Shown: positions 21,359 to 64,000 of the stretch, piece by piece
How positions within the stretch are numbered: position 1 is the stretch's first letter
Layout: every line of letters begins with the position of its first letter
From: Pseudaquabacterium terrae
GTDB taxonomy: Bacteria; Pseudomonadota; Gammaproteobacteria; Burkholderiales; Burkholderiaceae_C
Direction of reading: 5' to 3'
Assembly: GCF_013266755.1 (NCBI RefSeq)
Contig: NZ_JABRWJ010000006.1
Span: forward strand, 62,001-126,000
DNA: 64,000 bases
Translations under genes and position numbers: made by a program
The notes under the pieces: generated by a model
The model's input: the letters and a program-made list of their open reading frames with translations, nothing else
What the model was told of the DNA's origin: nothing
Databases searched by the model: none

Positions 21359-21684
21359 CGTGCTCACTCCTCGAGAGTCAAAAAAGATTCGGCCGCCGCC
21401 CTCAGCGCCGGCCGAAGCCATGGGTGCCGAGGCGTCGCCACTGCAAGTGGCTTGCCAGCGCCCGCGCACCAGAATCTGACCAAAGGGTCAATTTCACGCA
21501 AAGGCGAGGCGCGTCCGACCGCGGGTTTGCCCGCGATTCGGCATTTCGCCAACACTTCGCTGGTGCACATCGGCGCCGACCTGGTGCAGTGGTCGCCGGC
21601 TGCACGGACTGTGCAGCCGGTCAATGCAAGCCCGATGACGGCAGCGCCCGCTGATGCGCGGGCGCAACGCGGGAGCCTGCAGCC
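21359..21684. promoter_or_regulatory. Intergenic region with palindromes upstream of the receptor gene
   Basis: No gene is seen in these 326 bases. On the minus strand a TTGACC element (21491-21486) overlaps a TGACC-N4-GGTCA palindrome (21477-21490) about 120 bases before the receptor start; it may be a -35 box and operator, although no good -10 follows. Two perfect hairpins lie closer to the 5'-nucleotidase end: a 10-bp stem pairing 21596-21605 with 21611-21620, and an 8-bp stem pairing 21644-21651 with 21658-21665. Neither has a T tract. Confidence 0.35.
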
Positions 21685-45986: not shown

Positions 45987-46023
45987 GGGCCTGCGATCCT
46001 AAGCGCTGGTGCGGGTTCCCCGT

Positions 46024-47628
46024 CTAGTCGTCGGCCGGTGCCTGGCCGGGCACCACCTCCAAGGCCCGCACCGGCAAGCGCAGGGCCCACAACATCCACA
46101 ACGCCGGCAGCGCGAGCACCGTCGAGACGATGAAGAAGCTCGGCCAGCCGATCGATTCGGCCAGCACGCCGGCCAGCGGCCCGACCCACACGCGGCCGAC
46201 CGACGCAAAGGCGCTCAGCAGCGCGAACTGCGTCGCGGTGAAGCGCTGCTGCGTCAGGCTCATCAGGAAGGCGAGGAAGGCTGCCGTGCCCATGCCACCC
46301 GACAGGTTCTCGAAGGTCACGACCATCAGCAGCGCGCCATCGACCTCGGTGGGCTGGCTGAGCGACACGATCCAGAAGTCGAAGGCCGGCATCGTCAGCG
46401 CGCCCAGGCTGCCCTTGCCCTGCGCCGCGAGCCACCAGAAACCGAGGTTGCTCGCCGCCTGCAGCACGCCGAACACCATCAGCGCGCGCCACAGCCCGAG
46501 CTTGAGCATCAGCAGCCCGCCGAGCAGCGCGCCGCCGATCGTCAGCCACAGCCCGATCACCTTGTTGACGACACCGACCTCGGCCGAGCTGAAGGCCATC
46601 GCCTTCAGCAGGAACGGCGTCATCAGTGCGCCGGCGAAGGCGTCGCCCAGCTTGTAGAGCACGATGAAGAGCAGGAAAGCCGCCGCGCCGCGCTGGGAGA
46701 AATAGCCGCGCAGGCCGCCGATCAGCGTGTCGAAGCGCGCGCGCCGCGCCGCCCAGCCGGCCAGCGGCAGCGTGAAGGCGATGCCCAGCAGCAGCGCGAG
46801 CAGGTCGACCCAGCGCGTTTTCAGCGCGGCACTCAGCGTGCTGCCCTCGAGCCACGGCGCGAGCAGCAGGCCGGCCAGCGGCGTCAGCAGGTGCAGCGTG
46901 ACGAGGTAGCCGGTCGCCGCGGCGAGCATCACCGCGACGAAGCCGATCAGGTCGTTGCGCGCGACGCTGGTCGGTGCCTCCGGCAGCGGCAGGCGCGGCA
47001 GCACCAGCGCCGAGAAGACCGCGGCGCCGACCATCAGCACGGCCATCAGCCGATACACCTCGGGCCAGGTCCAGCCGCTGCCGGTCACCGCATCGGTCCA
47101 GATCAGCGCGATGCCGCCGGACAGAATCATCGCCAGCCGGTAGCCCATCACCTTCAGCGACGAGCCCAGGCCCCGCTCGGCCGGCGGCAACAGGTCGGTC
47201 GTGAAGGCATCGATGACCACGTCCTGCGAGGCCGAGACGAAGGCGATCACCACGCCGAGCAGCGCAAAGAGCTGCAGCGCGCCCTTGGGCGGCGTCGCCG
47301 CCAGCAGCCACAGCAGCCCGGCCAGCACCAGCTGCGTCAGCACCAGCCAGCCGCGGCGCCGGCCCCAGCGCGGCCACAGCTCGAAGCGGTCCATCAGCGG
47401 CGCCCACAGGAACTTGAAGGTGTAGGGCAGGCCGACCAGGCTCAGGAAGCCGATCGTCGCGATGTCCAGCCCTTCGATCGACAGCCAGGCCTGCATCGCC
47501 TGGCCGGTCAGCGCCAGCGGCAGCCCGGAGGCGAAGCCGAGCACCGCGGTGACGAAGAGGCGATAGCTCGCGGCCAGGCGCGGATGCGGCAGGGGCCGGC
47601 GAAGGTGGGGATCGAGGGGGGTCGTCAT
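46024..47628 (-). CDS. AmpG-like MFS permease
   Basis: This 534-residue inner-membrane protein has about 12-14 hydrophobic helices. The AmpG-type features are LGFASGLPLALTGQAMQAWL, IGFLSLVGLPYTFKFLWAPL with MDR, ASQDVVIDAFTTDLLPPAER, and GLGSSLKVMGYRLAMILSGG. AmpG imports anhydro-muropeptides for cell-wall recycling; distant members carry other solutes, so the substrate is tentative. The ATG at 47628 is chosen over one 12 bases upstream that overlaps the divergent promoter. It is divergent from the GNAT gene. Confidence 0.88.
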   Translation of the reverse strand: MTTPLDPHLRRPLPHPRLAASYRLFVTAVLGFASGLPLALTGQAMQAWLSIEGLDIATIGFLSLVGLPYTFKFLWAPLMDRFELWPRWGRRRGWLVLTQLVLAGLLWLLAATPPKGALQLFALLGVVIAFVSASQDVVIDAFTTDLLPPAERGLGSSLKVMGYRLAMILSGGIALIWTDAVTGSGWTWPEVYRLMAVLMVGAAVFSALVLPRLPLPEAPTSVARNDLIGFVAVMLAAATGYLVTLHLLTPLAGLLLAPWLEGSTLSAALKTRWVDLLALLLGIAFTLPLAGWAARRARFDTLIGGLRGYFSQRGAAAFLLFIVLYKLGDAFAGALMTPFLLKAMAFSSAEVGVVNKVIGLWLTIGGALLGGLLMLKLGLWRALMVFGVLQAASNLGFWWLAAQGKGSLGALTMPAFDFWIVSLSQPTEVDGALLMVVTFENLSGGMGTAAFLAFLMSLTQQRFTATQFALLSAFASVGRVWVGPLAGVLAESIGWPSFFIVSTVLALPALWMLWALRLPVRALEVVPGQAPADD

Positions 47629-47675
47629 GCGCGGCGCCATTGTCGTGGCACCGGCCTGGGCGTCATGATGGACGC

Positions 47676-49062: not shown

Positions 49063-49066
49063 CGCT

Positions 49067-49954: not shown

Positions 49955-50887
49955 ATGGATGAACTCGATTGGAGCGACCTGCGCTATGCACTGGCGGTCG
50001 GCGCGTCGGGCGGTCTGGCGGCGGCGGCGCGCCAGCTCGGGGTCAACCACACCACCGTGTTGCGCCGGCTCGATGCGTTGGAGGAGCGCCTGGGCGCACG
50101 GCTGTTCGAGCGCACGCGAAGTGGTTACCAACCCACCGAGGCCGGGGCGCTGGTCCTCGAACAGGCGCGGCGGATGGCCGATCGCGCCGAGGAGATCGAG
50201 CGCCAGGTGCTCGGCCGCGACCGCGCGCTAACCGGCCTGCTGCGCCTGACGACCGCCTTCGTCGTGATGGAGCACCTGCTGCCGCAGCCGCTGGCCGATT
50301 TCGCGCGCGCCTACCCGGGCATCGAGGTCGAGGTGGTCGAGAACGCGGTGCTGGTCGACCTGTCGCGCCGGCGCACGGCCGACGAGTCACCGGCCTGGAT
50401 GCGGCGCGAGGCGGACGTCGCGGTGCGGCTGTCGGCGCAGGTGGCCGAGCACCTGGTCGGCCGGCCGCTCGGGCTGACGCAATGCTGCGTCTACGCACGC
50501 CGCGGCGCGCCGGGGCTGCCGCAGGCGGTCGAGCCGCTGGCGGCGCTGATCCGCGACGCGCCGTGGGTGGCCTTCGAGCGCGACATGCAAAGCCGCGTCT
50601 ACGACCAGTGGATGAAGCGGCAGCTGGCGCAGGCGCGCGTGCGGCTGCGCGTCGACATCTTCAACGCCGTCGCCGCGATGCTGCACACCGGCATCGGCGT
50701 CGGGCTGCTGCCGACCTTCATGCAGGCGCGCCATCCGGAGCTGGTCGCGGTGTCGGAGCCGATCCCCGAGCTGGCGGTGCCGGTGTGGATGCTGACGCAC
50801 CCGGATCTGCGCCAGACGGCGCGTGTGCGGGCGTTCATGCAGGACGTCGGCGACGGGATTGCTGCCCGCCTCGATCCGCTGCCCTGA
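49955..50887 (+). CDS. LysR-family transcriptional regulator (second)
   Basis: The protein has 310 residues. The N-terminal helix-turn-helix (about 6-66) contains DWSDLRYALAVGASGGLAAA, ARQLGVNHTTVLRRLDALEE and FERTRSGYQPTEAGALVLEQ. The effector domain (about 92-300) includes READVAVRLSAQVAEHLVGR and MLHTGIGVGLLPTFMQARHP. The AAARQLGVNHTTVLRRLDAL pattern is typical of the subgroup with a Trp-Asp-Asp-like start that often acts on a distant or divergent target. It converges with the ghrA-like gene, 7 bases away. Confidence 0.93.
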   Translation: MDELDWSDLRYALAVGASGGLAAAARQLGVNHTTVLRRLDALEERLGARLFERTRSGYQPTEAGALVLEQARRMADRAEEIERQVLGRDRALTGLLRLTTAFVVMEHLLPQPLADFARAYPGIEVEVVENAVLVDLSRRRTADESPAWMRREADVAVRLSAQVAEHLVGRPLGLTQCCVYARRGAPGLPQAVEPLAALIRDAPWVAFERDMQSRVYDQWMKRQLAQARVRLRVDIFNAVAAMLHTGIGVGLLPTFMQARHPELVAVSEPIPELAVPVWMLTHPDLRQTARVRAFMQDVGDGIAARLDPLP

Positions 50888-50894
50888 ATCCGGA

Positions 50895-51800
50895 TCAGTA
50901 GCCGCGGCCGCGGTCGACCGCGTTCGGCAACGGCCGCCCGGCCTGCAGGCAGCGCAAGCCCGCGACGAACTGCCGCGCGACGGTCTCGTGCGACGGCTGC
51001 GCCGCGATGTGCGGGGTGATCGTGATGCCGGGCACGCCCCACAGCGGATCGTCGGCCGGCAGCGGTTCGTGCTGCTGCACGTCGAGCGCGGCGCCAGCCA
51101 GGTGGCCGGATTGCACCGCGGCGATCAGGTCGGTCTCGACGATATGGCCGCCGCGCGCGACGTTGATCAGATAGGCGCCGCGCGGCATCGCGGCGAAGGC
51201 TGCGGCATCGAGCAGGCCGCTGGTTTCGGGCGTTAGCGGCAAGGCGATCACGACGATCTGGCAGCGCCCGAGCAGCGCGTGCAGCGCGCCGCTGTCGCGG
51301 CGCCACGGCGCGACCTCGAAGCCCAGTGCCTGCAGTGGCGCGGCGGCTGCGCGGCCGACCTCGCCCCAGCCGAGCATGCCGATGCGGTGCCGCGCCGCCG
51401 GCAGCGGGTGGCGCGTCCAGCGGCGCTCCATCTGCTGCGCCTCGTACAGCGGCAGCGTGCGCGCGTGGCGCAGGCACATCAGCGCGACGTATTGCGAAAT
51501 GCCGAGCGCCTGCTCCGGATCGACGACGCGCGACATCGGCACCCCCGGCGCCAGGTCGGGCACCAGCAGCTTCTCGACGCCGGCGGCCATCGAGCAGACC
51601 CAGCGCAGCCGCGTCAGGCGCCCGGCAAGGCCCGGCGGCAGGCGCCAGCCGAGCACGACATCGATCGCGGCGAGCTGCGCGTCGTCGAGCGCGCGGTGGT
51701 CGGTCAGCAGCGTGAGCTCCGGCGCGGCGGCCTGCACCACCGCGGCCAGCGCGGCCGACTGCGCCGGATCCGGCGTCAACAGCAGCACCGTCGTGGTCAT
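50895..51800 (-). CDS. GhrA-like glyoxylate/hydroxypyruvate (2-hydroxyacid) reductase
   Basis: This 301-residue NAD(P)-dependent dehydrogenase has the Rossmann motif IGMLGWGEVGRAAAAPLQAL (about 145-165). The catalytic Arg lies in YLINVARGGHIVETDLIAAV, the Glu region in LDVQQHEPLPADDPLWGVPG, and the catalytic His in ITITPHIAAQ. The subgroup is GhrA, recognised by the short N-terminal domain with MAAGVEKLL. Its ATG overlaps the stop of the last solute-binding-protein gene by 4 bases with GAGGG upstream, so it is the sixth gene of that operon. A keto- or hydroxy-acid is therefore a possible breakdown product of the imported compound. Confidence 0.9.
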   Translation of the reverse strand: MTTTVLLLTPDPAQSAALAAVVQAAAPELTLLTDHRALDDAQLAAIDVVLGWRLPPGLAGRLTRLRWVCSMAAGVEKLLVPDLAPGVPMSRVVDPEQALGISQYVALMCLRHARTLPLYEAQQMERRWTRHPLPAARHRIGMLGWGEVGRAAAAPLQALGFEVAPWRRDSGALHALLGRCQIVVIALPLTPETSGLLDAAAFAAMPRGAYLINVARGGHIVETDLIAAVQSGHLAGAALDVQQHEPLPADDPLWGVPGITITPHIAAQPSHETVARQFVAGLRCLQAGRPLPNAVDRGRGY

Positions 51801-53587
51801 CGGCCCTCGACGTCGAGGTAGTGGTAGATGTCGCGCATGAACGGGTGGCGCCAGTAGTTGAGCAGCCACGGCTGCAGCAGATCGGCCTGCAGCCGGTGGC
51901 CGTGCACTTTATACGGCATGTAGGCGACCAGCAGATTCTTGGCCTCGTGCATCAGCGCGATCCGCTCGGGGCCGTCGGGCAGCCGGCGCTGGCGCTCGTA
52001 GAGGCGGTCGAAGGCGGGCAGCGCGAAGCGTGCGTCGTTCGATTCGTTGGCGTTCGGGCCGTACGCAATGCCGAGGAAGAAGCCGCCATCCGGCGACGCG
52101 GCGCTCCAGGCATAACCCCAGATCTGCAGGGCGCCGGCACGCGAGCGCTTGAGCATCTCGGCCCAGCCGGCGATCTCGAACTCGACGCGCACGCCGATGC
52201 GCTTGAGCGAGCGGTACCAGACCTCGTTGCCGTCGCGCGCGGCCTGGTTCTGCAGCGCCGCGATGCGCAGCGTCAGCGGCCGGCCATCGGGCAGCTCGCG
52301 CCAGCCATCGCCGTCGCGGTCGAGGTAGCCGTAGAGATCGAGCAGCGCGCGCGCCTTCGCCGGGTCGTGCTCGCTCATCTCGCTGCGGTAGGCCTCGTCG
52401 AAGCCCGAGGTGAAGGGCACGACCACCGACTGCGCGGGCACCGCCAGCCCGCCGCGCACCAGGCGGATCCACTGCGCGCCATCGTGCGCCAGCGCGATCG
52501 CGCGCCGCAGCGCCACCTTCTCGGGCGCATTGCCGCCGACGATCCGGTCGTCGCCGTTGAAGAAGCTCATGCTCATGTCCGCCGCCTGGCTCAGGTCGAG
52601 CCGGATGCCCTTCTTGCGCAGGAACGGCGCGAGCTGGCCGTTCGGCACCGCCAGCGTGCCGAAGCTGCCGGGCACCTCGATCGTGTCCAGTTGCCCGCCG
52701 AGGAAGGACAGCCACATCGGCTGCTGCTCCTCGATGATCTGGAACTCGATGCGGTCGACGCAGGGCAGGCGTCGGCCGGCGAGGCGCCGGGCGATGGCCT
52801 GCGCGAGTGGATCGTCGGCCGGCTCGCCGCTGTAGGGGTCGCCGCGGAAGCTCGGCGAACGCTCGAGCACCAGCCGCGAGCCGCGGCGCCAGGTCGTCAG
52901 CCGGAACGGGCCGGTGCCGACCGGGTGCGTGCCGATGTCGTTGCCGTAGCGCTCGACCACCTCGCGCGCGACCGCGCCGGTCAAGTACGGATGGGCCAGG
53001 TTGTAGATGAAGCGCGGCACCGGTTCGGCAAAGCGCAGCCGAAAGGTGTAGCGGTCGAGCACCTGCGCGCCTTCGACCTCGCGGTCGTAGTCGAAGGGCT
53101 TGCGCGTGGCGATCGCCGCGCGGCGCAGCTCGGACAGGCCGAGCAGCTTGGACTCCTCGAACAAATACAGGTCGCTCGAATTCCAGCGCGGGTCGTAGAA
53201 GCGCTTGATCGAATAGACGTAGTCGGCGGCGGTCAGCTCGCGCGGCTTGCCGCCGAAGGCCGGGTCGTCGGAGAACAGGATGCCGGGGCGGATGCGCAGC
53301 GTGATCTGCTTGCTGTCGGGCGTGATCTCCGGCATCGCCGCGGCGGTGGCCGGCTGCAGCCGCGGCGGCCGCGCGAGGTAGTCGAAGCGCAGCGGCGCTT
53401 CGAGGATGCAGGCCAGCAGCTGGAAGGTGTAGCGGCTGCTCTCGGTCTGCGGCGGGTCGAGCTGCGTTTCGGTGGCGGCGAGCGCCAGGTGCAAAGTCTT
53501 CGGGCCGCCTGCCGCGGACTGCGGGGCCGCAGCGCTGCCGATCGGAACCGCGGCAGCGCTGGCGATCAGGTCTCGACGGCGCAGCAT
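51797..53587 (-). CDS. Family-5 ABC solute-binding protein, paralog A (operon position 5)
   Basis: This 596-residue extracytoplasmic binding protein has a Tat-like N-terminus (LRRRDLIASAAAVP). The SBP_bac_5 pattern is LRIRPGILFSDDPAFGGKPR, VGTGPFRLTTWRRGSRLVLE and the hinge region MWLSFLGGQLDTIEVPG. A calcium-loop-like DRDGDG occurs near residue 420, and YMPYKVHGHRLQADLLQPWL near the end. It shares the segment RFYDPRWNSSDLYLFEESKL and GLSELRR with paralog E, so A and E form one subgroup. It starts 8 bases after paralog B. The ligand is unknown; oligopeptides, opines or glycosides are family-level options. Confidence 0.92.
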   Translation of the reverse strand: MLRRRDLIASAAAVPIGSAAAPQSAAGGPKTLHLALAATETQLDPPQTESSRYTFQLLACILEAPLRFDYLARPPRLQPATAAAMPEITPDSKQITLRIRPGILFSDDPAFGGKPRELTAADYVYSIKRFYDPRWNSSDLYLFEESKLLGLSELRRAAIATRKPFDYDREVEGAQVLDRYTFRLRFAEPVPRFIYNLAHPYLTGAVAREVVERYGNDIGTHPVGTGPFRLTTWRRGSRLVLERSPSFRGDPYSGEPADDPLAQAIARRLAGRRLPCVDRIEFQIIEEQQPMWLSFLGGQLDTIEVPGSFGTLAVPNGQLAPFLRKKGIRLDLSQAADMSMSFFNGDDRIVGGNAPEKVALRRAIALAHDGAQWIRLVRGGLAVPAQSVVVPFTSGFDEAYRSEMSEHDPAKARALLDLYGYLDRDGDGWRELPDGRPLTLRIAALQNQAARDGNEVWYRSLKRIGVRVEFEIAGWAEMLKRSRAGALQIWGYAWSAASPDGGFFLGIAYGPNANESNDARFALPAFDRLYERQRRLPDGPERIALMHEAKNLLVAYMPYKVHGHRLQADLLQPWLLNYWRHPFMRDIYHYLDVEGR

Positions 53588-53595
53588 CGGGCCGG

Positions 53596-55425
53596 TCAAT
53601 GCGGCTTGCGCTTGCTGTCGTCGATATCGACGAAGTGCCACCACTCGTACCAGAACAGCGGCCGGCGGAAACCGATCACCCACGGATGCCAGACATCGGC
53701 CTCGAGCCGATGCACGTGGAACTTCCACGGCATGTAGGCCACGGCAAGCCGCTTGGCCTCGAGGAACAGTGCTTCGCGCTCGGGCCCGTCAGGCAGCTGC
53801 TGCATGCGTTCGTAGAGGCGGTCGAAGGCCGGCAGCTTGAAGCGCGACATGTTCTGGCTGCCGGTCTCCGGGCCGTACAGCCGCGCCAGCGCCTGCTGGC
53901 CGTCGGGCGACGTGGCCGACGAGCCGAGCTGCCACATCATCAGCTTGCCGGCGCGCGCGGCCTTCAGGTTCTCGGGCCATTCGCCGGTGACGAAGCGAAT
54001 GCGCAAGCCGACCTTGTCCATCGCCTTCTTCCACAGCTCGTCGAAGGTGCGGTTGCGTTGCTCCGGCTGGGTGGCCATCTCCAGCTGCAATGCGCTGCCG
54101 TCGGGCAGCTCGCGCCAGCCATCGGCGTCGCGATCCAGGTAGCCGTAGAGGTCGAGCAGCGCGCGCGCCCGCGCCGGGTCGAAGTCACTCATCTCGCTCT
54201 TGAAGGCCGGGTCGTAGCCGGAGGTGTGCGGCACGACCGGCGACTGCGCCGGCACCGCGGCGCCGCGGCGGGCCAGCTGGATCTCGCGCCTGACGTCGTA
54301 GGCCAGCGAGATCGCGCGGCGCAGAGCGACCTTCTCCGGCGCGTAGCCGCCGATCAGCGGGTGCTCCATGTTGAAGAACGTCAGGCCGCTGTCGGCATTG
54401 ACGTTGAGCTTGCCGATGATGCCCTGCTTGGCGAGGTTGGGCGCCAGCTTGCCCCGGGGCATGGCGATGCCGAAGAAATCAGACGGCACCGCATTGGCCT
54501 GCGGTGCGAGCAGATCGACCTGGCCGTTCAGGAAGCTCAGCCAGCGCGGTTGGCTCTCGTTGATGATCGCAACGTGCACCTCGTCGACCAGCGGCAGGCG
54601 GCGGCCCTTGAACTGCTGGAGCAGCGCTTGGGCCTCGGCGTCGTCGGCGGCCGGCTCGCCGTCATAGAGCTCTTCGCGGAACTGCGGGTTGCGTTCGAGC
54701 ACGATCAGCGAGCTGCGCCGCCATTGCTTGAGCCGGAACGGCCCGGTGCCGACCGGGTGCGCATCGATCTCGCTCCCGTAGTGCTCGACCACCTCGCGCG
54801 CGACGGCACCGAACAGGTCGGGCGCGGCCAGCGTCTCGATCAGCCGCGGCCGCGGCGTTTCGAGCGTGAAGCGCACTGTGTAGCGGTCGAGCGCCTTCAT
54901 GCCCTCGACCTCACGGTCGTAGTCGAAGGGCTTCTTCTGCTCGATCGCATCGTCGCGCAGCGCCTTCAGGCCGACGAACCCGGTCGACAGCATGCCACCG
55001 ACCACCGGGCTCTTGACCGCCGGGTCGAAGATGCGCTTCATCGAATAGACGACATCCTGCGCCACCAGCTCGCGCGGCTGGCCCTTGAACGCCGGGTCGT
55101 CGGCGAAGCGGATGCCGCGCCGCAGCTTGACGGTCCAGACCTTGAAGTCGGGCGAAACCTCCGGCATGCCATCGGCCAAGTTCGGCTTGATCCTGTAGGG
55201 CCGCGCCAGATGGTCGTAGCGGTACGGCGCCTCGAAGATGTGGGCCGTGAGCGCGCGCGAATAGCTGTCGACGATCTTCGCCGGATCGAGGCTGGTCTCG
55301 GCGGCGGCGAAGGCGACGCGCAGGATCTTCGGGCCCGGCGCGGCAGCGGCCTCGCCCGCGTTCGCGGCCGCTGCGCCGAGCACAGCGAGCAGCGCGAGCA
55401 TCAGTCGTCGCATGGTGTCGATCAT
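53596..55425 (-). CDS. Family-5 ABC solute-binding protein, paralog B (operon position 4)
   Basis: The protein has 609 residues with a Sec signal peptide (LALLAVLGAAAANAGEA, about 8-24). SBP_bac_5 landmarks are KLRRGIRFADDPAFKGQPRE, HPVGTGPFRLKQWRRSSLIV, PRWLSFLNGQVDLLAPQANA and NMEHPLIGGYAPEKVALRRA. The DxDxDG-like loop reads DRDADGWRE, one Gly replaced by Ala. The protein ends WWHFVDIDDSKRKPH. It falls in one subgroup with C and D (shared GFVGLKALRDDA). The start at 55425 overlaps the paralog C stop by 4 bases; an in-frame ATG at 55413 is an alternative. Confidence 0.92.
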   Translation of the reverse strand: MIDTMRRLMLALLAVLGAAAANAGEAAAAPGPKILRVAFAAAETSLDPAKIVDSYSRALTAHIFEAPYRYDHLARPYRIKPNLADGMPEVSPDFKVWTVKLRRGIRFADDPAFKGQPRELVAQDVVYSMKRIFDPAVKSPVVGGMLSTGFVGLKALRDDAIEQKKPFDYDREVEGMKALDRYTVRFTLETPRPRLIETLAAPDLFGAVAREVVEHYGSEIDAHPVGTGPFRLKQWRRSSLIVLERNPQFREELYDGEPAADDAEAQALLQQFKGRRLPLVDEVHVAIINESQPRWLSFLNGQVDLLAPQANAVPSDFFGIAMPRGKLAPNLAKQGIIGKLNVNADSGLTFFNMEHPLIGGYAPEKVALRRAISLAYDVRREIQLARRGAAVPAQSPVVPHTSGYDPAFKSEMSDFDPARARALLDLYGYLDRDADGWRELPDGSALQLEMATQPEQRNRTFDELWKKAMDKVGLRIRFVTGEWPENLKAARAGKLMMWQLGSSATSPDGQQALARLYGPETGSQNMSRFKLPAFDRLYERMQQLPDGPEREALFLEAKRLAVAYMPWKFHVHRLEADVWHPWVIGFRRPLFWYEWWHFVDIDDSKRKPH

Positions 55426-57233
55426 GGCCTGCGTTTGCTCTCGTCGATGTCGACCAGGTGCCACCACTCGTTCCAGAACACCGGCCGGCGGTAGCCCAGC
55501 ACCTGCGGATGGACCAGGTCGCCTTCGAGGCGGTGCACATGGTTCTTCCACGGCATGTACGCGACGGCCAGGCGCTTGGCCTCGAGAAACAGCGCGTCGC
55601 GTTCGGGCCCGTCGGGCAGCTGCTGCATGCGCTCGTAGATGCGATCGAACGCCGGCAGATTGAAGCGCGCGAGGTTCTGGCTGCCGGCCTCGGGGCCGTA
55701 CAGCCGCGCCAGCGCGCCCTGGCCGTCGGGCTTGTCGGCCGAGGACCCGAGCTGCCACATCATCAGCTTGCCGGCGCGTGCGGCCTTCAGGTTCTCGGGC
55801 CATTGCGCGGTGACGAAGCGCATGCGCAGGCCGATGGCATCCATCGCCTTCTTCCACAGCTCGTCGTAGGCGCGGTAGATCTGGTCGGGCTGGGTCGACA
55901 TCTCCAGCAGCAGCGGGCTGCCGTCGGGCTGTTCGCGCCAGCCGTCGCCATCACGGTCGACGTAACCGTACATGTCGAGCAGGGCCTTGGCGCGCGCCGG
56001 GTCGTAGTCGCCCATCTCGCTCTTGAACGCCGGGTCGTAGCCGCTGGTGTGCGGCACCACCGGCGATTGCGCGGGCACCGCGGCGCCACGGCGCACCAGG
56101 CGGATCTCGCGCCGGACGTCGAAGCCGAGCGAGACCGCGCGCCGCAGCGCGATCCGCTCCGGCGTGTAGCCGCCGACGACCGGATGCTCCATGTTGAAGT
56201 ACGACAGGCCGGTGTCGGGATTGACGGTGAGCCCGCCGCGGATGCCGCGCCGCGCCAGGTTCGGTGCCACCTGGCCGTTGGGCAGGGCCAGGTTGATGAA
56301 GTCCGAGGGCACCGGATTGCTCAGCGTCGCCAGCGTGTCGATCTGGCCGTTGAGGAAGGCCAGCCAGCGCGGCTGGCTCTCCTGGATGATCGAGATCTGC
56401 ACCTCGTCGACCATCGGCAGGCGCTGTCCCTTGAACCGGGCGAGCAGCGCCTGGCCTTCGGCGTCGCCGGGCGCGGGCTCGCCGTCGTAGTGGACCTCGC
56501 GGTAGTCGGGGCTGCGCTCGAGCACGATCAGCGAGCTGCGCCGCCACTGCTTGAGCCGGAAGGGCCCGGTGCCGACCGGGTGGCCATCGATCTCCGTGCC
56601 GTAGAACTCGACGACCTCGCGCGCCACCGCGCCATAGAGGTCGGACTGCGCCAGCACCTCCAAAAGGCGCGGCCGCGGCGCTTCGAGCGTGAAACGCAGC
56701 GTGTGGCGGTCGAGCGCCTGCAGGCCTGCCACCGGCCGGTCGTAGTCGAACGGCTTCTTGTCGCGCAGCGCCTCGTCGCGCAGGGCCTTCAGGCCGACGA
56801 ATCCGACCGACTGCACTTCGCCGAATCCGGCCGCTTTGGTGGCGGGGTCGAAGACGCGCTTGAAGGGGTAGATGAAGTCCTCGGCAACCACCTCGCGGCG
56901 CCGGCCCTTGAAGGCCGGGTCGTCGGCGAAGTAGATGCCGCGCCGGACCTTGATGGTCCAGGTCTTGAAGTCGGCGGACACCTCGGGCATGCCCTCGGCG
57001 AGCAGCGGCTTGAGCTTCGCCGGCCGCGCCAGGTGGTCGTAGTGGTACAGCGCCTCGAAGATGTGCGGGGTGACGGTGCGCGAGTACAGGTCGCTCACCT
57101 TCACCGGATCGAAGCTCGTCTCCGAAGAGCGGAATGCCAGGCGCAGGATCTTGCGGCCGCCGTCGCCGGCCACGGCCTGGCCGGCGGGGCTGACGGCGGC
57201 CAGCGCGAGCAGCAGGCGGCGGGTGGCGTCCAA
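55422..57233 (-). CDS. Family-5 ABC solute-binding protein, paralog C (operon position 3)
   Basis: The protein has 603 residues. No ATG lies before the signal peptide. A TTG at 57233, preceded by AGGGGAAG, opens LDATRRLLLALAAVSPAGQA, a good Sec signal, so a TTG start is called. Landmarks are KVRRGIYFADDPAFKGRRRE, HPVGTGPFRLKQWRRSSLIV, FLNGQIDTLATLSNPVPSDF and the loop DRDGDGWREQPDG. The C-terminus reads WWHLVDIDESKRRP. It is close to paralogs B and D along its whole length, which indicates tandem duplication. It starts 14 bases after the paralog D stop. Confidence 0.92.
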   Translation of the reverse strand: MDATRRLLLALAAVSPAGQAVAGDGGRKILRLAFRSSETSFDPVKVSDLYSRTVTPHIFEALYHYDHLARPAKLKPLLAEGMPEVSADFKTWTIKVRRGIYFADDPAFKGRRREVVAEDFIYPFKRVFDPATKAAGFGEVQSVGFVGLKALRDEALRDKKPFDYDRPVAGLQALDRHTLRFTLEAPRPRLLEVLAQSDLYGAVAREVVEFYGTEIDGHPVGTGPFRLKQWRRSSLIVLERSPDYREVHYDGEPAPGDAEGQALLARFKGQRLPMVDEVQISIIQESQPRWLAFLNGQIDTLATLSNPVPSDFINLALPNGQVAPNLARRGIRGGLTVNPDTGLSYFNMEHPVVGGYTPERIALRRAVSLGFDVRREIRLVRRGAAVPAQSPVVPHTSGYDPAFKSEMGDYDPARAKALLDMYGYVDRDGDGWREQPDGSPLLLEMSTQPDQIYRAYDELWKKAMDAIGLRMRFVTAQWPENLKAARAGKLMMWQLGSSADKPDGQGALARLYGPEAGSQNLARFNLPAFDRIYERMQQLPDGPERDALFLEAKRLAVAYMPWKNHVHRLEGDLVHPQVLGYRRPVFWNEWWHLVDIDESKRRP

Positions 57234-57247
57234 CGGTCTTCCCCTGC

Positions 57248-59086
57248 TCAGCGCGCCGGGCGCTTGCTGTCGTCGATGTCGACCATGTGCCACCAGTCCT
57301 GCCAGAAGATGGGCTTCTTGTAGCCCACCAGCCAGGGGTGGCGCAGCTCGCATTCCATGCGGTGCACGCGGTGCTTCAGCGGCATGTACGCGGCGCCGAT
57401 GCGCTTGACCTCGTCGAACAGCGCGCGACGCTCCTGGCCGTCGGGCAGCGCCTGGAGGCGCTCGTAGATCCGGTCCATCGCCGGCAGGCGGAAGCGCGCG
57501 TAGTTCTGGCTGCCGATCTCGCTGGTGACATAGCGCGCGACGGCGGTCTCGCCGTCCGGTGCGGCGGCCGAGAGACCGAACTGCCAGACCATGTACTTGC
57601 CGTTGCGCGCGGCCTTCAGGTTCTCGGGCCACTGGCCGACGATGAACTTGATGCGCAGGCCCAACGCGTTCATCGCCTTCTGCCACAGCTCGTCGAGGAT
57701 GCGCGAGCGCTGCTCGGGCTGGGTCATCATCTCCAGCAGCAGCGGGCTGCCGTCGGGCTGCTCGCGCCAGCCGTCGCCATCGCGGTCGACGTAGCCGTAC
57801 ATGTCCAGCAGCGCCTTCGCGCGCGCCGGGTCGTAGTCGCTCGACTCGCACTTGAACGCCGCGTCGTAGCCCACGGTGTACGGCACCAGCGCGGACTGCG
57901 CCGGCACCGCCGCGCCTTTCCAGAAGGCATCGATCTCGCGCCGCACGTCGTAGCCAAGAGAGATCGCGCGCCGCAAGGCGACCTTCTCGGGCGTGTAGCC
58001 GCCGACCAGCGCGTGCTCCATGTTGAACATCGTCAGGTGCACGTCGGCATTGACGTTTTGGCGCCCGAGGATGCCGCGCTTGGCCAGGTTCGGCGCGAGC
58101 TTGCCATTGGGCATCGCGACGCCGACGAACTCCTGCGGCAGCGGGTTCGAATTCGTCGCCAGGGCATCGATGCGGCCGTTGAGGAAGGTCAGCCAGCGCG
58201 GCTGGCTCTCGAGGATGATCGAGATCTGCACCTCGTCGACCAGCGGCAGCTTGCGGCCCTTCAGCCGCGCGAGGATCGCCTGGCCCTCGGCATCGTCAGG
58301 CGCCGGTTCCGCATCCCAGCGCTCGTCGCGATAGTGCGGGTTACGCTCGAGCACGATCAGCGACGCGCGCCGCCACTGCTTCAGGCGAAAGGGCCCGGTG
58401 CCTACCGGATGCGCGTCGATCTCGTTGCCGTAGAACTCGACCACCTCGCGCGCCACCGCGCCCCACAGGTCCGGCGTGGCCAGCAACTCCAGTAGCCGCG
58501 GGCGCGGCTGCTCGGTCACGAAGCGCACGGTGTAGCGATCGAGCGCCCGCAGACCCTCGACGGGCCGGTCGTAGTCGAACGGCTTCTTGCGTTCGGTGGC
58601 GTCGTCGCGCAGCGCCTTCATGCCGACGAAGCCGTAGCCCAGCAAGGTGCCGATGGCCGGGCTCTTGTTGGCCGGGTCGTAGAAGCGCTTCATCGCGTAG
58701 ACGAAGTCCTCGGCGACCAGCTCGCGCTTCACCCCGTTGAAGACCGGATCGTCGGCGAAGAAGATGCCGCGCCGCACCTTGACCGTCCAGACGCGGAAGT
58801 CCGGCGAGACTTCGGGCATGGCCTCGGCCAGGTTGGGCTTGATCTTCACCGGCCGCGCGAGGTGGTCGTACTTGTACAGTGCCTCGAAGATGTGCGGCGT
58901 CACCGTGCGCGAATACAGGTCGACCACCTTGGCCGGGTCGAGCCCACTCTCCGACGAGCTGAACGCCAGGTGCAGCACCTTCCTGCCGGCATCGGCCGGC
59001 ACGGGCTGCGGGGCCGGACCGGCAAAGGCAGCGGCCACCGGCGCGCTGCCGATGCCGGTCATCAGCAGTCGACGCAGCGGGTTCAC
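57248..59086 (-). CDS. Family-5 ABC solute-binding protein, paralog D (operon position 2)
   Basis: The protein has 612 residues. A GTG at 59086 overlaps the TGA of paralog E (GTGA) and opens VNPLRRLLMTGIGSAPVAAA, a Sec- or weakly Tat-like signal. An ATG 24 bases later would cut the charged region. Landmarks are KVRRGIFFADDPVFNGVKRE, HPVGTGPFRLKQWRRASLIV, WLTFLNGRIDALATNSNPLP, the loop DRDGDGWREQPDG and the C-terminal WWHMVDIDDSKRPAR. It groups with paralogs B and C. Differences cluster in loops that face the ligand in this fold, so a different specificity is possible. Confidence 0.92.
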   Translation of the reverse strand: MNPLRRLLMTGIGSAPVAAAFAGPAPQPVPADAGRKVLHLAFSSSESGLDPAKVVDLYSRTVTPHIFEALYKYDHLARPVKIKPNLAEAMPEVSPDFRVWTVKVRRGIFFADDPVFNGVKRELVAEDFVYAMKRFYDPANKSPAIGTLLGYGFVGMKALRDDATERKKPFDYDRPVEGLRALDRYTVRFVTEQPRPRLLELLATPDLWGAVAREVVEFYGNEIDAHPVGTGPFRLKQWRRASLIVLERNPHYRDERWDAEPAPDDAEGQAILARLKGRKLPLVDEVQISIILESQPRWLTFLNGRIDALATNSNPLPQEFVGVAMPNGKLAPNLAKRGILGRQNVNADVHLTMFNMEHALVGGYTPEKVALRRAISLGYDVRREIDAFWKGAAVPAQSALVPYTVGYDAAFKCESSDYDPARAKALLDMYGYVDRDGDGWREQPDGSPLLLEMMTQPEQRSRILDELWQKAMNALGLRIKFIVGQWPENLKAARNGKYMVWQFGLSAAAPDGETAVARYVTSEIGSQNYARFRLPAMDRIYERLQALPDGQERRALFDEVKRIGAAYMPLKHRVHRMECELRHPWLVGYKKPIFWQDWWHMVDIDDSKRPAR

Positions 59087-60918
59087 TTGGCAGTCCGCTT
59101 CTTCATCTCGTCCATGTCGACATCGACGTACTTCCAGAAGTCGCGCACGAAGATGTTGCGGTGGTAGCCCTTGACCCACGGATGCGTCATGTCGGTGAAG
59201 ATGCGGTGCACGTGGACCTTGTACGGCATGTAGGCGACCATCAGCTTCTTCTGTTCGTCGATCAGCGCGCGGCGTTCGTCGCCATCGGGCAGCACGCGCT
59301 GCTGCTGATGCAGGCGGTTGTAGTCGGGCAGGTCGAAGCGCGCGTGATTGGCCTGGCCCTTGTTCGGCCCGTAGCCGAGCTCGAGAAAGGCATCGGCGTC
59401 AGGCACCGTCGCGCTCCAGCCGACGCCCCACATCATCAGCTTGCCGGCGCGCGAGGCCTTCAGCTGCTCCGGCCACTTGGCCAGCTTGAACTCGATGCGG
59501 ATGCCGATTGCATCCATGTTCTTCTTCCACTGCTCGTTGAGCTGGCGGTTCTGCTGGTCCGGCTGCGAGGCGTATTCGAGCAGCAGCGGCGTGCCGTCGG
59601 GCAGGTCGCGCCAGCCGTCGCCGTCGCGGTCGATGTAGCCGTGCATGTCGAGCAGCGCGCGGGCGCGGGCGCGGCTGAATTCGCCCATCTCCGACTTGAA
59701 GGCGGCGTCGTAGCCCCAGGTGTTCGGGCCGACGTGCGATTGCGCGGGCACCGCCTGGCCGCGCCGCACCAATTGGATCTCGCGCTCGACATCCACCGCC
59801 AGCGCAATGGCGCGGCGCAGCGCGACCTTGTCCGGCGTGTAGCCGCCGACCACCGGATGCTCCATGCCGAAGTACGACACCGACACGTCGGCGCGCGGAT
59901 AGCGTTCCATGTGGATGCCGTGCTTGGCGAGGTTCGGCGCCAGCTTGTTGTTCGGAATCGCGATCGTCGCGAACTCCGGCGGCAGCTCGTCGAGCATGTC
60001 GTGCCCGCCGTTCAGGAACGACAGCCAGCGCGGCTGGTTCTCCTCGATGATCGAGACCTCGATGCGATCGACCATCGGCAGCCGGCGGCCCTTGAAGGCC
60101 TTCGCCGCCGCCTGCAGGTCGGGCCGCTCGGCCGGCGGCTGCTCGTCGTAGTAGACCTCGCGGTAGCCGGGGTTGCGCTCCAGCACCATCTTCGACGAAC
60201 GCACCCACTGCGTCAGCTTGAACGGCCCGGTGCCGACCGGATGCGCGCCGATCTTGTCGTCGTAGAGCTCGACCACCTCGCGCGCCATCGCACCGGTGAA
60301 CGATCCGTCGGCCAGCAGGTACAGGAAGCGCGGCTGCGGCTCGCCGAAGCGGAACTGCAGCGTGTAGCGGTCCAGCGCGCGCAAGCCCTCGACCTCGCGG
60401 TCGTAGTCGAACGGCTTCTTCGCTGCCATCAGCTCCTTGCGCAGCTCGCTCAATCCCAGGATCTTGGCGTTCTCCAGCAGGTAGAGGTTGCCGCTCTTCC
60501 AGCGCGGGTCGTAATGGCGCTTGATCGCGTAGACGTAGTCCGCGGCGGTCAGCTCGCGCCGCTGGCCCTTGAAGGCCGGGTCGTCGGCGAAGTAGATGCC
60601 GGGCTGGATGCGGATGGTGATCGTCTTGAAATCGGCCGACACCTCGGGCATCGCCGCCGCCGTGGCCGGGCGCAGCTTGACCGGCCGCGCCATCCACGCG
60701 AACGCCAGCGGCGCCTCGAAGATGTTGGCCGACACGGTGCGCGAATACAGGTCGGTGATCTGCGCCGGATCGAACGCGGTCTCGGCGACGCGGAAGGCAT
60801 AACGCAGTGTTTTCGGGGCCGCGGCCGGCGCCGGCGCATCGGCGGCCACGGCGGGCATGGCAGCGGACAAAAGCAGCATCAGACTCGTGGTCAGTGCCAG
60901 GAGCGAGGGGTGGCTCAT
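59083..60918 (-). CDS. Family-5 ABC solute-binding protein, paralog E (first gene of the operon)
   Basis: The protein has 611 residues with a Sec signal peptide (LALTTSLMLLLSAAMPAVAA, about 6-25). Landmarks are RIQPGIYFADDPAFKGQRRE, RHYDPRWKSGNLYLLENAKI with GLSELRK (shared with paralog A), HPVGTGPFKLTQWVRSSKMV, FLNGGHDMLDELPPEFATIA and the loop DRDGDGWRDLPDG. As the first gene after the divergent promoter region, it is probably the best expressed of the five. The start at 60918 is chosen because a signal peptide follows directly; an upstream in-frame ATG would add 31 unlikely residues. Confidence 0.92.
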   Translation of the reverse strand: MSHPSLLALTTSLMLLLSAAMPAVAADAPAPAAAPKTLRYAFRVAETAFDPAQITDLYSRTVSANIFEAPLAFAWMARPVKLRPATAAAMPEVSADFKTITIRIQPGIYFADDPAFKGQRRELTAADYVYAIKRHYDPRWKSGNLYLLENAKILGLSELRKELMAAKKPFDYDREVEGLRALDRYTLQFRFGEPQPRFLYLLADGSFTGAMAREVVELYDDKIGAHPVGTGPFKLTQWVRSSKMVLERNPGYREVYYDEQPPAERPDLQAAAKAFKGRRLPMVDRIEVSIIEENQPRWLSFLNGGHDMLDELPPEFATIAIPNNKLAPNLAKHGIHMERYPRADVSVSYFGMEHPVVGGYTPDKVALRRAIALAVDVEREIQLVRRGQAVPAQSHVGPNTWGYDAAFKSEMGEFSRARARALLDMHGYIDRDGDGWRDLPDGTPLLLEYASQPDQQNRQLNEQWKKNMDAIGIRIEFKLAKWPEQLKASRAGKLMMWGVGWSATVPDADAFLELGYGPNKGQANHARFDLPDYNRLHQQQRVLPDGDERRALIDEQKKLMVAYMPYKVHVHRIFTDMTHPWVKGYHRNIFVRDFWKYVDVDMDEMKKRTAK

Positions 60919-61186
60919 CTCGGCGGGGGCACGCAAGCCCAGGGTACGGGCGGCGCGCGGACAGCGGGTGAAGATGGCGCCGAGTCTAAGGCGCCGGTCC
61001 GAGCGCCGCATCCCGATTAGCCCGGCCGTACGACTAGAGCCACCCGCCTAGACAAGTGCCCCGGCACGGGGTTTGCGATAGGGCGGTCGGGTATCCGCGC
61101 CCCCCTAAACTCCCGCATCCTGAAATTGGGGGAGAGCCGGGCACGAGCCGGTGCGACCCCCAACCCCGTGTCTGGAGCTGAGTGTC
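60919..61186. promoter_or_regulatory. Divergent promoter region of the binding-protein operon and the ABC transporter operon
   Basis: These 268 bases contain no gene. They must hold the promoters of both divergent operons. I see a short CCCCG-GCA-CGGGG hairpin followed by TTT at about 61058-61073 and CTAG-containing spots at about 61033 and 61050, but no convincing -35/-10 pair or long palindrome. GGAG precedes the first permease start by about 9 bases. Confidence 0.4.
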
Positions 61187-62125
61187 ATGCTGGCCTACCT
61201 GATACGACGCCTGTGGCAAATGATTCCGACCTTGATCGGCGTCGTGCTGCTGGTGTTCGTGCTGTTTCATTTCTTCGGCGGCGATCCCGCTGAAATCCTC
61301 GGCGGTTTGAATGCCACCGCCGAGCAGATCGCGGCGATCCGCCAGCAGCTGAAGCTCGACGAGCCGTGGTACGTGCAGCTGTGGATCTTCATCAAGCAGA
61401 TCGCCACCTTCGACTGGGGCCGCAGCTGGGCCACCAACGAGGCGGTCAGCAACCTGTTCGCGACACGGCTGCCGGCGACGCTGACGGTGATGATCCCGAT
61501 CCTGCTGCTCGACACGATGCTGGCGATCCCGATCGCGCTGGGCGTGGCCTACGTGCGCGGCTCGCTGACCGACCGGTCGCTGATGGTCGTGACGACCGTC
61601 GCGCTGTCGATCAGCTTCCTGGTCTACATCATCGTCGGCCAGTACCTGTTCGGTTTCCAGTTCGGCTGGTTCCCGGTGCAGGGCTGGAGCGATTCGACGT
61701 GGACCAACCTGACGACCTACGTGCCGCTGCCGGTGATGCTGGCGGTGCTGGTCGGCGTGTCGCCGCAGACGCGGCTGTACCGCAGCTTCTTCCTCGACGA
61801 GCTCGGCCATGACTACGTGCGCACCGCGCGCGCCAAGGGCCTGACCGAACGCACCGTGCTGTTCAAGCACGTGCTGCGCAACGCGATGATCCCGATCCTG
61901 ACCAACGTCGGCCTGGCGCTGCCGTCGATCTTCGTCGGCTCGTTCCTGATCGAGGTCTTCTTCTCGATTCCCGGCCTCGGCCGCGAAGTGCTGCTGGCAG
62001 TCAACCGCAGCGACTATCCGGTGATCCAGGCGACCACCGTCTACCTGGCGGTGCTGACGATGTTCATCAACCTCGCCACCGACATCCTCTACAAAGTGGT
62101 CGATCCGCGGGTGGTCCTCAAATGA
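61187..62125 (+). CDS. Oligopeptide-type ABC transporter permease (DppB/OppB family)
   Basis: This 312-residue inner-membrane protein has six predicted helices. The N-terminus MLAYLIRRLWQMIPTLIGVV is typical of DppB/OppB. The cytoplasmic EAA loop is DYVRTARAKGLTERTVLFKH followed by VLRNAMIPILTNVGLALPSI. SIPGLGREVLLAVNRSDYPVI closes the domain. It starts 268 bases from the divergent cluster of five binding proteins, its likely receptors. Its stop overlaps the second permease start by 4 bases. Confidence 0.95.
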   Translation: MLAYLIRRLWQMIPTLIGVVLLVFVLFHFFGGDPAEILGGLNATAEQIAAIRQQLKLDEPWYVQLWIFIKQIATFDWGRSWATNEAVSNLFATRLPATLTVMIPILLLDTMLAIPIALGVAYVRGSLTDRSLMVVTTVALSISFLVYIIVGQYLFGFQFGWFPVQGWSDSTWTNLTTYVPLPVMLAVLVGVSPQTRLYRSFFLDELGHDYVRTARAKGLTERTVLFKHVLRNAMIPILTNVGLALPSIFVGSFLIEVFFSIPGLGREVLLAVNRSDYPVIQATTVYLAVLTMFINLATDILYKVVDPRVVLK

Positions 62126-63201
62126 GTGCAGTCCTCCCCACTTCGGTGACCCCACCGGTCGCCACCGCCCCGAAATCCGAAGGCGTCTGGCATGCCGCCT
62201 GGCGGCGCTTTCGCGGCGACCGCGTCGGCCTCACGTCGCTGCTGATCGTCGCCGGCTTCCTGCTGATGATCCTGCTGGCCGGCATCGGCCTGGTGGCCCA
62301 GGACTGGCAGCGCGAGGTGGGCGTTGCCAACGCGCCGCCGCACTTCGTCGGCCCGAAGCCGGCCGAAGCCACCGGCGCGATCGCCGCGCCGAAGGGGCCG
62401 AACGTCGACCTGTCGGCGATCGATCCGCTGGCGCCGCGCTACAAGGAATGGGAAGAGCGCGCCGCCAAGTTGAAGAGCAGCGACACGGTCAAGGCCGAGA
62501 CGCTGCCCTTCGGCGGCGACCGCCTCGGCCGCGACGTGCTCGACAAGGCGATCAAGGGCACGCAGGTGTCGGTGGCCGTCGGCGTGCTGGCGGCCGTGAT
62601 GGCCACCGTGCTCGGCACGCTGCTGGGCGCGCTGTCGGGCTTCTTCGGCGGCAAGATCGGCGACTTCCTCGAGTGGCTCTACACCGTCTTCACGTCGATC
62701 CCCAGCATCCTCTTGATCTTCACGCTGGCCGCGGTGCTGAACCGCGCCGACGCGATCATTCCGCGCGGCATCTGGACCATCGTGATCATCCTCGGCCTGG
62801 TCGGCTGGACCGACTTGTACAGACAAGTGCGGGCCGAGTTCATCAAGCACTCGACGCGCGAGTACGTGCGCGCGGCCGAGGCGATCGGCGCCTCGACCAC
62901 CGCGCGCATGTTCCGCCATATCCTGCCCAACGTCAGCCACGTGGTGCTGGTGCGCATGTCGCTGCTGGTGGTCGGCTTCATCAAGAGCGAGGTGATCCTG
63001 TCGTACCTGGGCCTGGGCGTGCCGATCGACCAGGTCAGCTGGGGCACGATGCTCGCCGAATCGCAGGCCGAGCTGATCCTCGGCCATTGGTGGCAGCTGG
63101 CCGCCGCCACCCTCTTCATGGCGGTCTTCGTCACCGCGTTCTCGCTGATGGCCGATGCCTGGCGTGACGCGCTCGATCCGAAACTCCGCGGCGCCGAATG
63201 A
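62122..63201 (+). CDS. Oligopeptide-type ABC transporter permease (DppC/OppC family)
   Basis: This 359-residue protein has the family N-terminus HAAWRRFRGDRVGLTSLLIV. A first helix is followed by an unusually long extracytoplasmic stretch (about 60-135, including YKEWEERAAKLKSSDTVKAE) before FGGDRLGRDVLDKAIKGTQV. The EAA loop is EYVRAAEAIGASTTARMFRH followed by ILPNVSHVVLVRMSLLV. YLGLGVPIDQVSWGTMLAES is typical. Ordinary DppC/OppC proteins have about 300 residues, so the extra segment accounts for the length and might contact the binding proteins. Confidence 0.95.
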   Translation: MSAVLPTSVTPPVATAPKSEGVWHAAWRRFRGDRVGLTSLLIVAGFLLMILLAGIGLVAQDWQREVGVANAPPHFVGPKPAEATGAIAAPKGPNVDLSAIDPLAPRYKEWEERAAKLKSSDTVKAETLPFGGDRLGRDVLDKAIKGTQVSVAVGVLAAVMATVLGTLLGALSGFFGGKIGDFLEWLYTVFTSIPSILLIFTLAAVLNRADAIIPRGIWTIVIILGLVGWTDLYRQVRAEFIKHSTREYVRAAEAIGASTTARMFRHILPNVSHVVLVRMSLLVVGFIKSEVILSYLGLGVPIDQVSWGTMLAESQAELILGHWWQLAAATLFMAVFVTAFSLMADAWRDALDPKLRGAE

Positions 63202-63208
63202 GAACCCC

Positions 63209-64000
63209 ATGCTTCTGAGCATCCAAGACCTGAAGGTCGCGTTCCGCATGGGCGAGCGCGGCAGCAAGACGCTGGCGCAAGCCGTCCGGGGCGTCAGCTT
63301 CGACATCCCCGAGAATTCCACCGTCGCGCTGGTCGGCGAATCGGGCTCCGGCAAGAGCGTCACCGCGATGAGCGTGCTGAACCTGCTGCCCGACAACGCG
63401 CGGCGCGAGGGCCGCATCCTGTACCAGGGCCGCGACCTGCTGCAGGCCACGCTGCCCGAGCTGCAAGCGCTGCGCGGGCGCGAGATCGCCTGCGTGTTCC
63501 AGGACCCGATGAGCTCGCTGAACCCGGTGTTCACCGTCGGCCAGCAACTGGCCGAGCCGCTGATCAAGCACCTCGGCATGGGCGGCCGACAAGCGATCGA
63601 ACGTGCCGAGGCGCTGCTCAACGAGGTCGGCATCCCGGAGCCGAAGCGGCGCCTGAAGTCCTATCCGCACGAGATGTCCGGCGGCCAGCAGCAGCGCGTG
63701 ATGATCGCGATGGCGCTGTCGTGCGAGCCCAAGCTGCTGATCGCCGACGAGCCGACCACCGCGCTCGACGTGACGATCCAGCGCCAGATCCTCGAGCTGC
63801 TGGCGAAGCTGAAGGAGCGGCACCGCATGAGCGTGCTGTTCATCAGCCACGACCTCGGTGTCGTCGGCGAGATCTCGGACCACGTCGTCGTGATGCGCCA
63901 TGGCATCGTGCGCGAGCAGGCCGCGGTCGCGCGCATCTTCTCGGCCCCTGAGGACGCCTACACCCGCGCACTGCTGGCCTGCCGGCCGAGCCTCACCGAC
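63209..64000 (+). CDS. Oligopeptide-type ABC transporter ATPase (DppD/OppD family), cut by the window end
   Basis: 264 codons are visible from the ATG 7 bases after the permease stop, and the frame is still open at the window end. Walker A is GESGSGKSV (about 43-51), the Q-loop region is VFQDPMSSLNPVFTVGQQL, the signature MSGGQQQRVMIAMAL, Walker B LLIADEPTTALDVTIQRQIL and the H-loop SHDLGVV. The end shows FSAPEDAYTRALLACRPSL, the start of the oligopeptide C-terminal domain. A DppF-type second ATPase would be expected just beyond the window. Confidence 0.95.
   Translation, partial: MLLSIQDLKVAFRMGERGSKTLAQAVRGVSFDIPENSTVALVGESGSGKSVTAMSVLNLLPDNARREGRILYQGRDLLQATLPELQALRGREIACVFQDPMSSLNPVFTVGQQLAEPLIKHLGMGGRQAIERAEALLNEVGIPEPKRRLKSYPHEMSGGQQQRVMIAMALSCEPKLLIADEPTTALDVTIQRQILELLAKLKERHRMSVLFISHDLGVVGEISDHVVVMRHGIVREQAAVARIFSAPEDAYTRALLACRPSLTD

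Follow-up and report, generated by a model that had tools for sequence, protein, structure and literature searches.

We analyzed a 64,000-nucleotide stretch of the Pseudaquabacterium terrae genome (hereafter the window; C53:62001-126000 in an assembly of 8.04 Mb and 56 contigs) and found five family-5 solute-binding protein (SBP) genes, SBP1 to SBP5, in a row on the minus strand from 60918 down to 51797. Divergent from SBP1 are genes for an OppB-type permease, an OppC-type permease and a fused double ATPase (Table 1). In the best reading of this arrangement, a single Opp/Dpp-type ATP-binding cassette (ABC) importer core is fed by five diversified receptors; we consider this probable, given the co-location and co-inheritance of the genes and the lack of another permease of the array's subfamily. 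Five periplasmic receptors, apparently encoded by one operon, would hand their cargo to the single OppB-OppC-fused ATPase importer, all five would dock on that one core, and they may differ from each other in ligand.

Receptor genes and the importer core

All five receptor genes exceeded the cut-off of the SBP_bac_5 model PF00496 (197–219 bits against 32.4), their frames are intact and open throughout, and every junction is an overlap or a gap of at most 14 bases. The proteins belong to family 5 (cluster C) by the domain, present in each of them, and by the fold of the SBP3 model. These results, from Pfam and from reading of the junctions, confirmed a first-pass annotation of the same DNA, which had described five consecutive, linked family-5 receptors with correct coordinates and all four junctions right, followed by a dehydrogenase; the latter is also coupled to the series by an ATGA overlap. 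B- and C-type permeases with BPD_transp domains and two ABC domains stand beside the receptors, as in an Opp/Dpp-type ABC importer, and the combination of several receptor genes with one core is, at the gene level, that of a multi-receptor ABC importer. The ATPase is a single protein of 584 amino acids with two ABC domains (PF00005, two stretches in L021:1156-2910), running past the end of the window.

The genome holds 22 SBP_bac_5 matches, and the best receptor outside the array, which has an OppB-like permease beside it, scored 143.5 bits versus 1073–1184 for SBP1 to SBP5. A search at E ≤ 1e-15 found no second permease set of the array's subfamily in the genome: it detected ten further OppB-like permeases, which are only 26–40% identical. 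No distant permeases belonging to the five receptors, which would have spoken against a shared core, turned up in this search.

Pairwise identity is 67.6–72.8% among SBP2, SBP3 and SBP4 and 46.6–55.7% for the remaining pairs. Compared with the array of Aquabacterium humicola (L022), the nearest named relative, whose OppB is 97% identical to that of the window, the ratio of nonsynonymous to synonymous substitution rates (dN/dS, our quotient of the computed values for four orthologous pairs) was 0.36 for SBP1, 0.34 for SBP2, 0.32 for SBP4 and 0.27 for SBP5; SBP3 has no ortholog in that array. These four receptors appear to be under purifying selection. Together with the open frames, the ratios of 0.27–0.36 for four of the five genes lend no support to the possibility, raised in the annotation, that several copies are pseudogenes.

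Receptor lineages and array length among relatives

A scan with OppB found 519 relatives, and the best 80 named loci were kept for locus comparison. At least one receptor lies upstream of OppB on the opposite strand in 75 of these best 80 loci; the spacing between receptor and OppB is 1.1–6.3 kb in five of the 75 (L054, L056, L061, L075 and L085). The other five loci (L038, L047, L076, L078 and L083) begin too near OppB to contain a whole receptor, and two of them carry a receptor fragment. One to five receptors per locus were counted within the 10-kb flank, and the nine five-receptor loci all reach the left end of their stretch and may continue. In a survey of 299 genomes of the family, in which at most four candidates were scored per genome, array-type receptors (E ≤ 1e-120) occurred in 107 genomes, including the present one, and in 48 of 126 genera. 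Thirty genomes were scored fully and had 4 to 7 receptors each, with arrays of seven in G105, G198, G269 and G304; they were picked for having four in the family survey, so these numbers do not show the typical array size. The array is a variable-length system, of 1 to 7 receptors, found across a group of beta-proteobacteria.

A FastTree tree with midpoint root, built from 208 full-length receptors (213 before the length cut; five from the window), contained one clade for class 1 (65 tips, support 86) and one for class 5 (17 tips, support 99), joined by a node of 84 tips (support 97); the remaining receptors make up the middle class. Two A. humicola receptors joined SBP2, SBP3 and SBP4 in a recent group (support 99), suggesting that this group expanded in near relatives of the window. 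The permease-proximal receptor belongs to class 1 in 59 of 74 arrays, class 5 stands at the distal end in 17 of 17, and the section between them is variable. The order in the window is 1-3-3-3-5, the same as in L048, L049, L050 and L091, and best matches in L105 and in two arrays of seven receptors, L103 and L104, agree with the class order. The array receptors fall into three lineages whose order is largely fixed, and the middle class may grow and shrink with the gain and loss of specificities.

The annotation had divided the five proteins into two subgroups. The one of SBP2, SBP3 and SBP4 is clear, by the local support of 99 and the identities given above. The pairing of SBP1 with SBP5 stands only in part: the tree joins classes 1 and 5 (support 97), but raw identity gives no such group, since SBP1 is 55.7% identical to SBP5, 55.6% to SBP3 and 55.7% to SBP4.

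Ligand-end residues and candidate ligands

In Escherichia coli DppA, the carboxyl end of the dipeptide is bound by R383 and its amino end by D436, and the two residues pair with E41/R42 in the scoop loop of DppB; a charge-reversal double mutant lost dipeptide binding (PMC12136057). We located the receptor columns by profile alignment to chain 8z1y_F, counting residue numbers from the alignment coordinates; the R383 column is the less certain one, as an earlier five-sequence profile put the Yersinia DppA residue in an insertion. The R383 column is basic in 0 of 208 array receptors and the D436 column is Asp in 15 of 208, with both together in none. In the window, the residues at the two columns are S/T in SBP1, T/A in SBP2, T/D in SBP3, T/T in SBP4 and A/A in SBP5, so that SBP3 alone has Asp at the D436 column. 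On the permease side, alignment to DppB chain 8z1v_A placed L at position 41 in 70 of 81 OppB proteins and N at position 42 in 77 of 81. The charges are therefore mostly gone on both sides, in receptors and permease.

The array receptors thus lack the R383 and D436 pair of a DppA-type dipeptide receptor, and SBP1 to SBP5 scored 58–88 bits against the NCBIfam DppA equivalog cut-off of 1005; none of these five receptors and neither permease of the window reached any NCBIfam cut-off. Nor does the system qualify as YejABEF (134 bits versus a YejB cut-off of 445, and 561 bits versus a YejF cut-off of 834). The fused ATPase exceeded several NCBIfam ATPase cut-offs (e.g., TIGR02770, 445.8 versus 318.7), but with two stretches in each case, the scores of both domains being added; its first part of 281 amino acids alone was under the cut-off of the ATPase models shown, the named ones being NikD, NikE, CntD, CntF and PRK11308 (nickel, staphylopine, dipeptide). 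A structure model, made for SBP3 alone of the five receptors, had a predicted local distance difference test score of 94.0, and its fold matched DppA, OppA, MppA, GbpA and a Mesorhizobium peptide-binding protein, the ten best matches being 20–23% identical; the matches of this predicted fold name no ligand. Because charged anchors are mostly absent and the NCBIfam cut-offs are not reached, “oligopeptide” is only a family label here. Of the earlier claim of a receptor array feeding one channel of the oligopeptide type, the shared core remains the best reading, and the substrate part is unsupported. It seems fairly likely that the ligands are not ordinary di- or tripeptides with free charged ends, or that they are held in another way.

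The array could nevertheless be an ordinary di- or oligopeptide importer of widened range, like Dpp of Pseudomonas aeruginosa, with peptide ends held by other residues. This is compatible with a shared core, and we regard it as unlikely. In its favor, the closest solved folds include the receptors named above, the permease has DppB and OppB proteins and one putative peptide permease as its solved relatives, and SBP3 retains Asp. Against it, both end-anchoring columns are lost in nearly all receptors, as are the scoop charges of the permease, and titles of structure entries list a nickel complex, agropinic acid, sialic acid or glutathione as ligands of other family-5 receptors with this fold. 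That the receptors are redundant duplicates, kept for dosage or unused together, in an array of mostly neutral copy-number turnover, would agree with the range from 1 to 7 copies within one family and with the missing SBP3 ortholog in L022. However, the lineages hold their order across genera, the receptors bear signs of purifying selection, and the copies are only 46.6–72.8% identical to each other, making this explanation very unlikely.

Several points weigh against a shared core with diversified, ordered receptors that have left dipeptide binding behind. Gene clustering is no proof that a core is used in common. In 15 of 74 arrays, a receptor other than class 1 sits closest to the permease. 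The class labels depend on a FastTree tree with a midpoint root, in which the middle class is paraphyletic: ten of its sequences group near classes 1 and 5, and six of these ten take the proximal place of class 1. Peptides could be held through other contacts. Additionally, Asp is kept in only 2 of the 14 other alignable family-5 receptors of the genome (L001 and L020; L013 gave no profile match, and another two matches lacked a locus), so Asp loss alone is not special.

Alternatively, the cargo may be cell-wall fragments (anhydro-muropeptides or their peptides), different ones being bound by different receptors; the transporter would then be partly redundant with the muropeptide permease AmpG and able to replace it. 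This is likewise compatible with a shared core; we consider it quite unlikely. The N-terminus of muropeptides is blocked, which fits the loss of Asp at the D436 column. An AmpG-family gene lies on the same strand 3.3 kb past the dehydrogenase, and AmpG orthologs (at least 69% identity) were present in the flanks of 11 of the 80 loci, two of them as short pieces at the locus end; the L051 flank had a match at 31% identity only, and many locus flanks are too short to reveal AmpG. Among 40 array genomes searched, 24 had an AmpG ortholog at 1e-60: it was within 13 kb of the array in nine and, in three more, at most about 4 kb from an orphan receptor, but 26–48 kb from the array in four and farther away or on another contig in eight (distances computed by us). 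As an observation on the neighborhood, the AmpG-family permease is followed by an M48 metalloprotease (45042-47640), and both are near the array in 6 of the 80 named loci.

With the AmpG model TIGR00901, 66 of 106 array-bearing genomes (the present one excluded) were over the cut-off, 16 had divergent proteins (242–265 bits) and 24 had remote matches only (at most 195.5 bits). In 134 tested of the 192 array-lacking genomes, 127 were over the cut-off, 3 had divergent and 3 partial proteins, and 1 had none. AmpG-less genomes were thus 24 of 106 with the array versus 1 of 134 lacking it (Fisher 9e-9). However, this comparison is confounded by clade, as most array-lacking genomes carry AmpG of 488–535 bits whereas the window type scores about 390–465. 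Against array-lacking genomes with the window AmpG type, the figures were 24/106 versus 0/6 or 0/7 when both score and frame length were used (p = 0.34) and versus 0/12 with score as the sole criterion (p = 0.12), neither difference being significant, these clade controls having been picked by us from AmpG scores and frame lengths instead of a genome tree. Most array genomes also keep AmpG, the 66 over the cut-off and the 16 divergent ones of 106. Across the family, AmpG scores fall into three classes (about 488–535, 390–465 and 242–265 bits).

AnmK was present in 18 of 18 AmpG-less array genomes tested, but across all genomes tested 64 of 66 retain it, and its retention is therefore weak evidence. 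A precedent for the replacement of AmpG is YejBEF-YepA in Agrobacterium (PMC9790009). In the P. terrae genome itself, however, a rival ABC system (L102) adjoins an LdcA-like gene (308.6 bits, under the cut-off of 378) and keeps the Asp. The stretch L102:1088-7076 encodes a receptor of 748 amino acids that, by eye, carries a hydrophobic segment at its C-terminus, along with an OppB-like permease, another permease-like frame and the LdcA-like muramoyltetrapeptide carboxypeptidase. This system is a candidate murein-peptide importer and a better muropeptide candidate than the array. The LdcA-linked system occurred in 14 of 18 AmpG-less array genomes, 12 of 18 other array genomes and 3 of 20 genomes without the array. 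In the four AmpG-less array genomes in which it was also not found (G070, G134, G210 and G221), the array stays a candidate for muropeptide import.

Given the confounding by clade and the rival system linked to LdcA, we do not regard the array as the unique muropeptide importer; its muropeptide role is a weak, clade-confounded lead. In its full form, the idea is that an ordered array of 1 to 7 receptors, on a core where neither receptor nor permease keeps the charges for free peptide ends, takes up cell-wall fragments with a blocked N-terminus and so allowed repeated AmpG loss in the clade; we consider this highly unlikely.

Gene neighborhood and relation to known systems

Table 1. Features of the receptor array and its surroundings (window coordinates)
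Feature	Position	Strand	Description
AmpG-family muropeptide permease	46024..47640	-	TIGR00901 436.6 bits, cut-off 350; neighbor gene, candidate link only
LysR-type regulator	49955..50887	+	PF03466, PF00126; convergent with receptor operon
D-2-hydroxyacid dehydrogenase, GhrA-like	50895..51800	-	PF02826 1e-43; ATGA overlap couples start 51800 to SBP5
SBP5	51797..53587	-	class 5 receptor, distal end of array; 8-base gap after SBP4; PF00496 201 bits
SBP4	53596..55425	-	middle class receptor; ATGA overlap with SBP3; PF00496 203 bits
SBP3	55422..57233	-	middle class receptor; TTG start; 14-base gap after SBP2; PF00496 197 bits
SBP2	57248..59086	-	middle class receptor; GTG start; GTGA overlap with SBP1; PF00496 199 bits
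SBP1	59083..60918	-	class 1 receptor, permease-proximal; PF00496 219 bits; start uncertain (ATG 61011 alternative)
Intergenic region between receptor and permease operons	60919..61186	.	divergent, about 270 bases
OppB-type permease	61187..62125	+	PF00528, PF19300; L41/N42 at E. coli DppB scoop positions E41/R42
OppC-type permease	62122..63201	+	PF00528, PF12911; ATGA overlap with OppB
Fused double ATPase, first part	63209..64000	+	ATG 63209 likely, start chosen by us; stop outside window, L021:2910

The dehydrogenase scored 138 bits with the GhrA model, under the cut-off of 403, and directly adjoins the array in 3 of the 80 loci (L022, L034 and L093) and also in L105. When neighboring genes were compared for a clue to substrate, no family was shared by more than three of the 26 left or of the 22 right proteins. 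The commonest on the left were the 2-hydroxyacid dehydrogenase (3/26, window included) and AMP-binding and ACAS_N (3/26), and on the right TctC, GGDEF and TPR_12 (3/22 each). The left set comprised the window dehydrogenase and 25 of 52 candidates and the right set 22 of 52, taken by a longest-open-reading-frame rule under which some frames may not be genes; genes on the other strand and those more than about 300 bases away were left out, as were four nearby left genes on the same strand (L049, L055, L072 and L075).

The LysR-type gene convergent with the receptor operon encodes a possible regulator. A scan of 50800-61400, including the divergent intergenic region, found no sigma-70-type promoter; it gave eight terminator-like matches against 4.7 expected, all within receptor genes. 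Two genes at 48202-49594 resemble, by eye, an extracytoplasmic function sigma/anti-sigma pair, and homologs are near the array in several relatives. Elsewhere, the window encodes an open frame of 800 amino acids with two aldehyde dehydrogenase stretches (29823-32225) and an outer-membrane beta-barrel protein of 1152 amino acids with a carboxypeptidase-regulatory-like domain (18011-21469). Past the ATPase, on the opposite strand, are a Fic-domain protein and a PAS hybrid histidine kinase (L021:3704-8019).

The first-pass annotation knew of no published system of this form, which is wrong for the general form: P. aeruginosa DppA1-A5 with DppBCDF and Borrelia burgdorferi OppA1-A5 have been published. 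In P. aeruginosa, five paralogous receptors serve one peptide-type permease and ATPase set, with four receptor genes near the operon (PMC4206461, PMC12728205), and distinct substrate profiles have been reported for them (PMC12728205). There, unlike here, dppA5 lies elsewhere and dppA4 is apparently co-transcribed with a porin gene, the DppD and DppF ATPases are separate, and the ligands are di- and tripeptides (PMC4206461, PMC12728205), whereas the present array has five receptors in one coupled divergent series, a fused ATPase and mostly absent dipeptide anchors. B. burgdorferi has three tandem and two more receptors sharing one ATPase pair, with species-variable copy number and inferred gene duplications, as in the array (PMC5736914). 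It differs in being a spirochete with two plasmid-borne receptors and two permease pairs (PMC5736914), and its solved OppA4 (4gl8) is only a distant match to the array receptors. In Agrobacterium tumefaciens, which lacks AmpG, one ABC core, YejBEF, serves two receptors, YejA and YepA, one of them muropeptide-specific, but these are encoded apart (Atu0187 and Atu1774; PMC9790009), and the permease and ATPase of the array are well below the YejB and YejF cut-offs. E. coli DppABCDF has a homologous permease and receptor, and the predicted SBP3 fold matches DppA, but it has one receptor and retains R383/D436 and the scoop residues E41/R42 (PMC12136057).

Several receptors for one pump are therefore already known; what is new is the ordered, variable array, its presence in 107 of 299 genomes and the loss of the anchors. 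We found no paper on the array or its receptor family in the openly licensed literature, searched mostly with strict all-term queries, which is weak evidence that it is undescribed. The array provides a natural series of one to seven receptors per importer core, in a largely kept order, in many genera of one family. Such a series makes receptor competition for one core and the evolution of specificity by duplication testable, and the missing dipeptide-end charges in receptor and permease alike point to a ligand class still to be assigned.

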